From K189A clade bacterium (lineage in GTDB: Bacteria > Pseudomonadota > Gammaproteobacteria > Pseudomonadales > Azotimanducaceae): a stretch of 64,000 nt of DNA. Made by a program: the position numbers and the translations under genes. The DNA is taken from assembly GCA_902631405.1 (NCBI GenBank), contig CACOYI010000004.1, positions 1-64,000 of the forward strand, in the 5' to 3' direction. The notes under the pieces were generated by a model, which saw nothing but the letters and a program-made list of their open reading frames with translations, had not been told where the DNA came from and did no database searches. Below, piece by piece: positions 14,877 to 55,900 of the stretch. How positions within the stretch are numbered: position 1 is the stretch's first letter; each line of letters starts with the position of its first letter.

Positions 14877-15016
14877 CCACCGCCCGCTGGGAAAGGCGAA
14901 AAACGTAACTTGAAGGAAGCACACCAGATTAGAAGGGCGGTCAGCTTGTTACCGTTAACAGAGTCCTGCTCAGGATTCGACGGGTCCAGGTCCGGTTTTT
15001 GAACAATCGAGGAAAT

Positions 15017-16849
15017 ATGGCTAAAGAAATCGATACAGCGCAACAAGAATCTAGACTGAAGGAGCTCATAGCTAAAGGAAAGGAGCAGGGCTATCTTACT
15101 TTTGGTGAAGTTAATGACCACTTGCCGGACGAGATATCCGATCCCGAGCAGATTGAAGACATCGTACGCATGATCAACGACATGGGCATAACGGTCCATG
15201 AAACTGCTCCGGATGCAGATGATCTCCTGACCAACGAGGAGAATACGGCTGATGAGGTGGCTGCTGAGGAAGCTGCTGCAGCGCTCGCCGCAGTAGAAAA
15301 CGAAGTGGGTAGGACTACCGATCCAGTGCGAATGTACATGCGTGAAATGGGAACGGTAGAGCTTCTAACCAGGGAAGGCGAGATTGCGATCGCAAAGAGA
15401 ATAGAAGAGGGTATAAGGGATGTCCTTCGGGCTTTAGCGTTTTTCCCCGGAACTGTTGACTTTTTATTGGACTCCTACACGCAGTGTGTCAGTGAGGATA
15501 AATTGTCTGATCTTCTTGTTGGGTATCTTGATCCTACGGAAGAAGTGCCCGCCGCAACTCAACCTGGAGATGCAGCTCCGGAAATCGATGAGGATGATGA
15601 GGAAGAACAAAAAGGTCCTGACCCTATAGAAGCGAAGAAAAGATTTTCGGCGCTTAAAAGACACTACAACAAATATCAAAAGATCTTGGACGAAAAGGGA
15701 GCTGGTAGCAAAGAACTGGCTGCCTATGCGCCAAAATTGGCTGAAGCTTATTCGTGTTTTAAATTGACGCCAAAATATTTTGACCAAATGGTTGAGATGG
15801 CGAAAGATTCTCATAGTCTTTCGAGGAAGCATGAAAGGGCAATAATGTCCGTGGTCGTAAAAGATTGTGGTGTTCCGAGAGATTTATTCAGGGCAGAATA
15901 TGTAGACAAAGAGCTCAGCGTTTCATGGATAAATAAGTTTTCCAAAGCAAAGAAAGACTATTCAGGTCGAATAGATAAATCCCGTGAAGAGATTTTGCGC
16001 TATCAAAAACGCCTCAAGAATCTGGTAAAAGAATTGGGACTAACTATTAAAGAATTAAGAGCGATAAATAGACAGGTATCCCTTGGCGAAGCTAAAGCAC
16101 GCAGGGCAAAAAAAGATATGGTGGAGGCTAACTTAAGATTGGTCATTTCTATTGCTAAGAAATATACCAATAGGGGGCTTCAGTTCTTAGACTTAATTCA
16201 GGAGGGGAACATTGGCTTGATGAAAGCCGTAGATAAGTTCGAATACCGCCGCGGTTATAAGTTCTCAACCTATGCGACATGGTGGATAAGACAAGCCATA
16301 ACCAGATCGATCGCTGATCAAGCTAGGACGATCAGGATTCCGGTTCACATGATAGAAACTATCAACAAATTGAATCGAATTAGCAGACAAATGCTACAAG
16401 AGATGGGTCGAGAACCCACACCCGAGGAGTTGGGAGATAGGATGGAAATGCCGGAAGACAAGGTTCGCCGTGTGTTAAAGATCGCGAAGGAGCCTATTTC
16501 GATGGAGACGCCCATTGGTGATGATGAAGACTCGAATCTGGGCGACTTTATTGAAGATCCACAAATCGGATCTCCAATTGAACTTGCTACTGGTGAAGGG
16601 CTTCGAGAGGCAACAAGAGATATTCTAGGCGGATTGACAGCCCGAGAAGCAAAAGTTTTGAGGATGCGGTTTGGTATTGATATGAACACCGACCACACTC
16701 TGGAGGAGGTTGGAAAACAGTTTGATGTCACCAGAGAGAGAATTCGTCAGATCGAGGCAAAAGCGTTGCGAAAACTTAGGCATCCGAGTAGATCTGAGCA
16801 TTTAAAGAGTTTTCTGGACGAGACTTCAGAAGGAGGGAAAAATACATAA
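15017..16849 (+). CDS. rpoD: RNA polymerase sigma-70 factor RpoD (start set to [10 protein letters not shown])
   Basis: Region 1.1, [11 protein letters not shown], regions 2-4 ([61 protein letters not shown]). Confidence 0.98.
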
Positions 16850-16872
16850 CGCGCAATGGAGTTGCGCGTGAA

Positions 16873-17225
16873 GGGCCTATAGCTCAGTTGGTTAGAGCAG
16901 TGGACTCATCAAAATGGTGCGCCTGAGCTCGAAAGAGCCAGGATGAACGGGATGAATTCAAGGAAACCTTAACCTTGGGATCGATATTCTAAAGTTGGCA
17001 ACCTTGAGCCAAGCTGGCGGTACACCGTCGGAAGGTGCAGAGACTACCTGAGGACTGGAGATTTAATCTCTAAGCGTCCTTAATAACAGGCTAGAGCGTC
17101 CCGCACCCAAACGAAGGATTCTGGCGGGAATCAAGGCGTGGGTGATGAGATAGTCCGCACAATGTTGAAAGACATTGATTATGTGAATCCATTGGTCCCA
17201 GGTTCGAGTCCTGGTGGGCCCACCA
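16873..17225 (+). tRNA. tRNA-Ile(CAU) (Ile2, lysidine-dependent type), interrupted by an intron; exons 16873..16909 and 17186..17225
   Basis: Spliced sequence GGGCCTATAGCTCAGTTGGTTAGAGCAGTGGACTCAT|AATCCATTGGTCCCAGGTTCGAGTCCTGGTGGGCCCACCA forms a full cloverleaf with encoded CCA; acceptor has C4-G69 and C5-G68; position after rpoD matches E. coli ileX and Pseudomonas. Confidence 0.93.
16910..17185 (+). ncRNA. Group I (IC3-like) self-splicing intron in the tRNA-Ile(CAU) anticodon loop, no ORF
   Basis: P4/P5-type AATTCAAGGAAACCTTAA, GGCAACCTTGAGCCAAGC, P7 GGAAGGTGCAGAGACTA and GATGAGATAGTCC; P2 hairpin GCTC-GAAA-GAGC; 5' exon ends in U, intron ends in G; GTG internal guide for exon CAU. Confidence 0.92.
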
Positions 17226-55538: not shown

Positions 55539-55877
55539 TGAGTAGGCTGGACAGTCGCCGTTAAGCGGAGGAAAGTCCGGGCTCCAAAGGGTAGGGAGCC
55601 AGGTAATACCTGGGGAGCGTGAGCTCACGGAAAGTGCAACAGAAAAAATACCGCCGCGCTTACTAATAGTCGCGGTAAGGGTGAAATGGTGTGGTAAGAG
55701 CGCACCGCGCTGATGGCAACATCAAGTGGCTAGGAAAACCCCTCCCGGAGTAAGACCAAATAGAGATCTTTTGGCGTTACCCGCGCCGGATCAGGGTAGG
55801 TCGCTTGAGATTATTGGTGACAATGATCCTAGATGAATGACTGTCCTCGACAGAACCCGGCTTACAGGCCTACTCTA
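55539..55877 (+). ncRNA. rnpB: RNase P RNA (bacterial type A)
   Basis: AGTAGGC/GCCTACT terminal P1, GGAGGAAAGTCCGGGCTCC, GACAGAACCCGGCTTA; located between rsmI and rsmH. Confidence 0.95.
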
Positions 55878-55900
55878 TTTGAGGATGTTTTATATGCCTT

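Follow-up and report, generated by a model that had tools for sequence, protein, structure and literature searches.

A split tRNA-Ile(CAU) gene with a predicted self-splicing group I intron downstream of rpoD in a K189A clade gammaproteobacterium

Introduction

The pre-tRNA-Ile(CAU) of Azoarcus sp. BH72 contains an IC3 group I intron of about 205 nt, which is ORF-less and carries GAAA loops on P2 and P9. Introns of the IC3/Azoarcus type are characterized by a short J7/3 and have no P7.1 or P7.2. The Azoarcus tRNA-Ile2 intron is mentioned in PMC3984707 and PMC6274277, and the tRNAscan-SE 2.0 paper describes group I introns in the tRNA-Ile2 of Acidovorax and Burkholderia, together with 36 genomes in which fMet or Ile2 is missing because of group I introns (PMC8450103). 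For a tRNA-Arg(CCU) intron of related type, splicing takes place both in vivo and in vitro (PMC7717549). In the literature searched, with most subscription papers outside reach, we found no paper on tRNA-Ile2 introns in the family studied here.

Structure of the split gene

We analysed a 64,000-nt stretch of DNA from a K189A clade bacterium (the window), in which the tRNA-Ile(CAU) gene is split by a group I intron (Table 1). The 5′ exon closes with the anticodon CAU (terminal letters ..GGACTCAT), the first letter of the intron is C and its last is G, and the 3′ exon opens with AATCC. An earlier note on this DNA had proposed an ORF-less group I intron inserted exactly after U36 of tRNA-Ile(CAU), and both parts of the proposal hold: no ORF longer than 40 codons was found inside the 276 nt, and the joined exons match an intact tRNA-Ile2 at 77 of 77 positions. 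The four core strings which it had quoted were all found in the intron. The covariance-model search it had suggested gave a match of RF00028 (Rfam) spanning 16898-17177, above the gathering score (87.9 bits, E 4.4e-21, vs 50). This general model was the only one in the Rfam copy used that matched the intron, and the intron is the only RF00028 match across its own genome. The single-strand fold of the intron showed 4.2 sd of extra stability compared with shuffles.

ARAGORN called no tRNA in the 64-kb window. Because the other split tRNA-Ile genes that were scanned were missed likewise, we did not count this result against the gene. All typed Ile introns end with G and are flanked by two intact exon halves, which fits a tRNA that the cell needs. 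With high confidence we regard the locus as a functional tRNA-Ile2 gene whose ORF-less group I intron is predicted to be self-splicing. Elsewhere in the window, a complete class A RNase P RNA was found at 55539-55880 (324.5 bits).

Table 1. Features of the split tRNA-Ile(CAU) gene and its surroundings (window coordinates).
Feature	Position	Strand	Evidence
rpoD, primary sigma factor	14999..16849	+	NCBIfam NF004208, 847 bits vs 555 cut-off
5′ exon of tRNA-Ile(CAU), tRNA positions 1-36	16873..16909	+	Sequence; joined exons 77/77 identical to intact gene in L036/G142 and G116
Group I intron, 276 nt, without ORF; terminal guanosine (omega-G) at 17185	16910..17185	+	RF00028, 87.9 bits; 41-sequence alignment with covariation
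3′ exon of tRNA-Ile(CAU), A37 to encoded CCA	17186..17225	+	Sequence; empty-site comparison
P1, 5′ exon with internal guide sequence	16902..16924	+	RF00028 alignment
P2 hairpin, GAAA loop	16922..16942	+	8/8 pairs covary across 41 introns
P3 (16948-16954 with 17097-17103), around P4-P6 and P7 5′	16948..17103	+	99% of cells paired; compensatory changes at two pairs
P4 (16958-16963/17002-17007), P5 (16967-16973/16994-16998), P6 (17008-17010/17034-17036), P6a (17014-17020/17025-17031)	16958..17036	+	RF00028 alignment; pair counts
P7, guanosine-binding helix (17042-17046 with 17151-17155)	17042..17155	+	Invariant in 41 sequences; core strings match RF00028
J7/3 subdomain: P7.1 (17047-17050/17087-17090), P7.2 (17051-17055/17076-17080) and a variable hairpin	17047..17090	+	P7.1 invariant; compensatory changes at 3/5 P7.2 pairs; J7/3 length comparison
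P8 (17104-17108 with 17140-17144)	17104..17144	+	99% of cells paired; compensatory changes at one pair
P9 hairpin, GAAA loop	17160..17177	+	6/7 pairs covary

Ribozyme fold and covariation

The alignment comprised 41 non-redundant tRNA-Ile introns, each with 12 nt of either exon. The P1-P9 structure, including the P3-P7 pseudoknot, was written by hand and then scored on this alignment. Under it 96.2% of the cells were paired and double changes were detected at 31 pairs; the doubly changed cells numbered 331, compared with a shuffled mean of 94 and with 45-81 for slid partners. The bulk of the covariation lies in P2, P6a (7 of 7 pairs), P7.2 and P9. The P3-P8 and P4-P6 core and the P3-P7 pseudoknot were both found, with at least 99% of cells paired in P3, P4, P6 and P8 and with P7 invariant. 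P5 is the least supported helix, with 73% of its cells paired. Being invariant, P7 and P7.1 are uninformative on pairing, pro or contra. Within P2, the aligned window sequence fails to form two pairs, apparently through a misplaced gap.

In P1, GUG at 16917-16919 lies opposite the anticodon CAU at 16907-16909, and this GUG/CAU combination is the same in all 41 introns. A U before the intron and a G at its end had been pointed out for this locus; both are present, and the U16909-G16917 wobble at the 5′ splice site is invariant (41/41).

Distribution of the intron

Insertion sites were typed by exon patterns. RF00028 matches were found in 53 of the 151 genomes of the window's family, and after typing the Ile intron was located at the same site in 46 of them. 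The class sample gave a match in 54 of 369 genomes and the same Ile intron in 22, spread over 17 other families. These family and class counts are lower bounds, because strict filters were applied in both surveys and the class survey scored five candidates per genome. While a gammaproteobacterial host was supported, the view that such an intron is unusual in a gammaproteobacterium has to be abandoned in the face of these counts; its lineage is a common one among uncultured members of the class. When the strict exon and guide pattern was searched in 399 mostly complete genomes of the phylum, only the window's own match appeared; this sample seems to be rich in complete genomes from well-studied taxa, and given the strictness of the pattern the result means rarity there and not absence.

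The other sites in the family were tRNA-Leu(UAA) (13 loci), tRNA-Arg(CCU) (5 loci), 23S rRNA and a few unresolved ones, and the Leu and Arg introns often share a genome with the Ile intron. Class-wide, group I introns were also revealed in tRNA-Thr(UGU) (four loci), tRNA-Lys(CUU) (one), tRNA-Lys(UUU) (two) and tRNA-Ser (one). In tRNA-Ile2 itself a second insertion point seems to exist between U33 and C34, where two loci (L237 and L306) have introns of Leu/Arg type. Five loci from several families apparently have group I introns in the T-arm region of the tmRNA gene (exons ..CGGGTTCGA / TCCCGCCGCCTCCACCA). Group I introns of 23S rRNA were found at ten loci, and one 1.0-Mb genome (G323) contains three matches within ~2 kb of one 23S gene.

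Empty sites and inheritance

Three relatives labelled K189A clade and HTCC2089 have the same split gene after rpoD. In UBA4421 (L036:4936-5012), a relative assigned to the window's genus, an uninterrupted tRNA-Ile2 after rpoD matches the joined exons of the window at every position (77/77). Within the genus of the window, the split gene was found in 8 of the 11 genomes searched and a clean empty site in the other 3; BLAST with the spliced tRNA as query revealed an intact full-length gene in the intronless congeners G104, G116 and G142. Intron presence and clean absence thus appear to occur inside one genus.

The tree of 105 introns placed the Ile(U36) introns without exception in one group and united the Leu and Arg introns in another. 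Each multi-member genus was one group (8 changes for 9 labels, which is the minimum), whereas the Ile introns of family f1 were mixed among the Ile introns from other families (7 changes). Therefore, descent looks vertical at the genus level with losses, possibly with transfer above it. The patchiness within the genus and the interleaving of family f1 might also suggest that the intron was acquired recently as a mobile element, with a homing endonuclease acting in trans; but the window intron has no endonuclease ORF, all typed Ile introns are 395 nt or shorter and the genera stay together on the tree, and we consider such an acquisition unlikely. The intron would instead be an old, mostly vertically inherited and dispensable passenger of the site, cleanly lost in some congeners.

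Relationship to the Azoarcus intron

The earlier note had also assumed close kinship with the Azoarcus and cyanobacterial IC3 introns and had suggested an intron phylogeny against Azoarcus. For the tree, BLASTn and J7/3 comparisons we used a 197-nt sequence which we take to be the Azoarcus ribozyme. This presumed sequence, whose branch is long, fell among the Leu/Ser-type introns, and a branch with 100/98 support lies between it and the Ile, Thr(UGU) and Lys(CUU) introns. BLASTn likewise placed it nearest to the Leu and Arg introns. The window intron stood with the Thr(UGU) and Lys(CUU) introns and did not group with the presumed Azoarcus sequence and the tRNA-Leu introns, so the assumed kinship was not borne out. 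A clade of the Ile introns plus the presumed Azoarcus sequence was rejected (AU p 0.025), while the wider clade of Ile, Thr, Lys and this sequence was not (p 0.30). The J7/3 region has 36-77 nt in the Ile, Thr and Lys(CUU) introns, 20-30 in the Leu and Arg introns and 19 in the presumed Azoarcus sequence. Instead of a short J7/3 lacking P7.1 and P7.2, the window intron contains a subdomain at 17047-17090 with a covarying P7.2.

If the window intron were of the Azoarcus IC3 type and shared its descent here with the betaproteobacterial intron, this would fit the common position and the common GUG/CAU guide pairing (for work on the Azoarcus internal guide sequence see PMC6274277), as well as the similar core strings of these two group I introns. 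However, the tree separates them and rejects their clade, with the reservation of a presumed sequence and a long branch, and the J7/3 subdomain of the Ile introns is absent from the presumed Azoarcus sequence; common descent at the site is improbable to us. Considering the tree split and the J7/3 difference, the shared position looks like one anticodon-loop site occupied by two intron lineages. We might further speculate, quite tentatively, that the Ile2(U36), Thr(UGU) and Lys(CUU) introns represent an undescribed structural subgroup with a conserved J7/3 subdomain, which came to the Azoarcus position on its own and occurs widely among uncultured Gammaproteobacteria, some of them heavy users of AUA and dependent on the intron.

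Gene neighbourhood and AUA decoding

The split gene had been placed 3′ of rpoD, and this is confirmed by the NF004208 match; tRNA-Ile2 also lies downstream of rpoD at four loci of relatives (L034-L037). The 23 nt between the end of rpoD and the tRNA start vary in both length and sequence among relatives. A sigma-70-like promoter was sought near the tRNA and none was found. A hairpin at 16849-16869, between the rpoD stop and the tRNA, is terminator-like on the - strand reading only.

In 29 window ORFs AUA accounts for 269 of 879 Ile codons (31%), or 20 per 1000 codons. With 13 AUA codons, the rpoD gene of the window exceeds its counterparts in near relatives (0-7); heavy use of AUA thus seems to characterize this genome and not intron carriers as such. 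Regulated splicing, linking the translation of AUA codons or the expression of rpoD to a signal in the cell (for example the GTP level), might be imagined from the high AUA use and from a tRNA only 23 nt past rpoD with no sigma-70-like promoter found nearby, but the spacer is unconserved and congeners have lost the intron, which makes it very unlikely.

The genome of the window (1.6 Mb, 82 contigs, 73% complete) was searched by BLAST with the spliced tRNA for another tRNA-Ile(CAU), as had been suggested, and only the two halves were found. Its remaining two CAU tRNAs are the elongator Met and the initiator Met, distinct from tRNA-Ile2, whereas the CAU anticodon of the split gene sits in an Ile2 body (77/77 with the uninterrupted gene found at this locus in a congener). 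Halves only were also found in the tested intron-bearing relatives, including four single-contig genomes (G037, G076, G078 and G121). The tRNA set of G037 has Ile(GAU), with elongator and initiator Met as its other CAU genes; Ile(UAU) was not found in it. TilS is encoded by an open 438-aa frame in the window's genome (G000:C6, TIGR02432, 158 bits vs 93.6) and was found in 9 of 9 genomes tested. The earlier note had made a dependence of AUA decoding on splicing conditional on the lack of another tRNA-Ile(CAU) copy, and the split gene is the only AUA-decoding tRNA gene detected here. With no second tRNA-Ile2 found, TilS present and AUA at 31%, AUA decoding very probably needs ribozyme splicing, as judged from these genome data, with the caveat that an intact tRNA-Ile2 may sit in the unseen part of a 73%-complete genome. 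That the split gene is a pseudogene and an intact copy in the missing 27% does the work is extremely improbable, since its exons do not differ from the intact gene of congeners, conservation extends to the ribozyme core, and a second copy is absent from complete relatives with the intron.

Two genomes have an additional copy of the 3′ exon at contig ends (G050, contigs C37 and C153; G127, contigs C141 and C17), where the contigs break inside the exon. These copies look like assembly overlaps and were rejected as second genes; the breaks might indicate that integration takes place at the 3′ end of the tRNA. A 13-base anticodon-stem pattern was also tried on the window's own genome, and its matches were mostly chance.

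Discussion

We propose that the transcript would fold into the P1-P9 ribozyme, in which the guide GUG (16917-16919) and the anticodon CAU would form P1 with its U-G wobble. Exogenous guanosine bound in P7 would cut after U36, the freed 5′ exon would attack after omega-G at 17185, and the exons would be joined to a normal tRNA. TilS would then convert C34 to lysidine, by which the spliced tRNA would read AUA. Proteins may assist splicing. The intron appears to belong to the tRNA-intron group of Ile2(U36), Thr(UGU) and Lys(CUU), with the J7/3 subdomain, apart from the group of Azoarcus, Leu and Arg introns.

An essential decoding tRNA would then be ribozyme-split in many members of an uncultured marine family, in a gene that standard tRNA finders miss. 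The textbook Azoarcus site seems to house a second intron lineage with a different structure. With AUA making up 31% of Ile codons in the window, the translational cost of ribozyme splicing should be testable in the host.

Among described introns, that of Azoarcus sp. BH72 shares the tRNA, the position after U36, the GUG/CAU guide, the lack of an ORF and the GAAA loops on P2 and P9. It differs in length (about 205 nt vs 276 here), in J7/3 (19 vs 36-77 nt) and in the intron tree, where the presumed Azoarcus sequence falls across the main branch from the window intron. The Acidovorax and Burkholderia tRNA-Ile2 introns, compared by description, are of the same element class in the same gene, and tRNA finders miss the gene for the same reason. 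The tRNA-Leu(UAA) and tRNA-Arg(CCU) introns of cyanobacteria, alphaproteobacteria and the window's family are also small and ORF-less with the same catalytic core, and coexist with the Ile intron in family genomes, but they occupy another site, belong to another lineage and are without the J7/3 subdomain. The tRNA-Thr(UGU) and tRNA-Lys(CUU) introns from other families of the class are nearest on the tree, lie after U36 and have a J7/3 of 36 nt, but interrupt other tRNAs with another guide sequence. Group I introns in tRNA-Ile2 were thus already known, and the window intron adds a lineage apparently distinct from that of Azoarcus.
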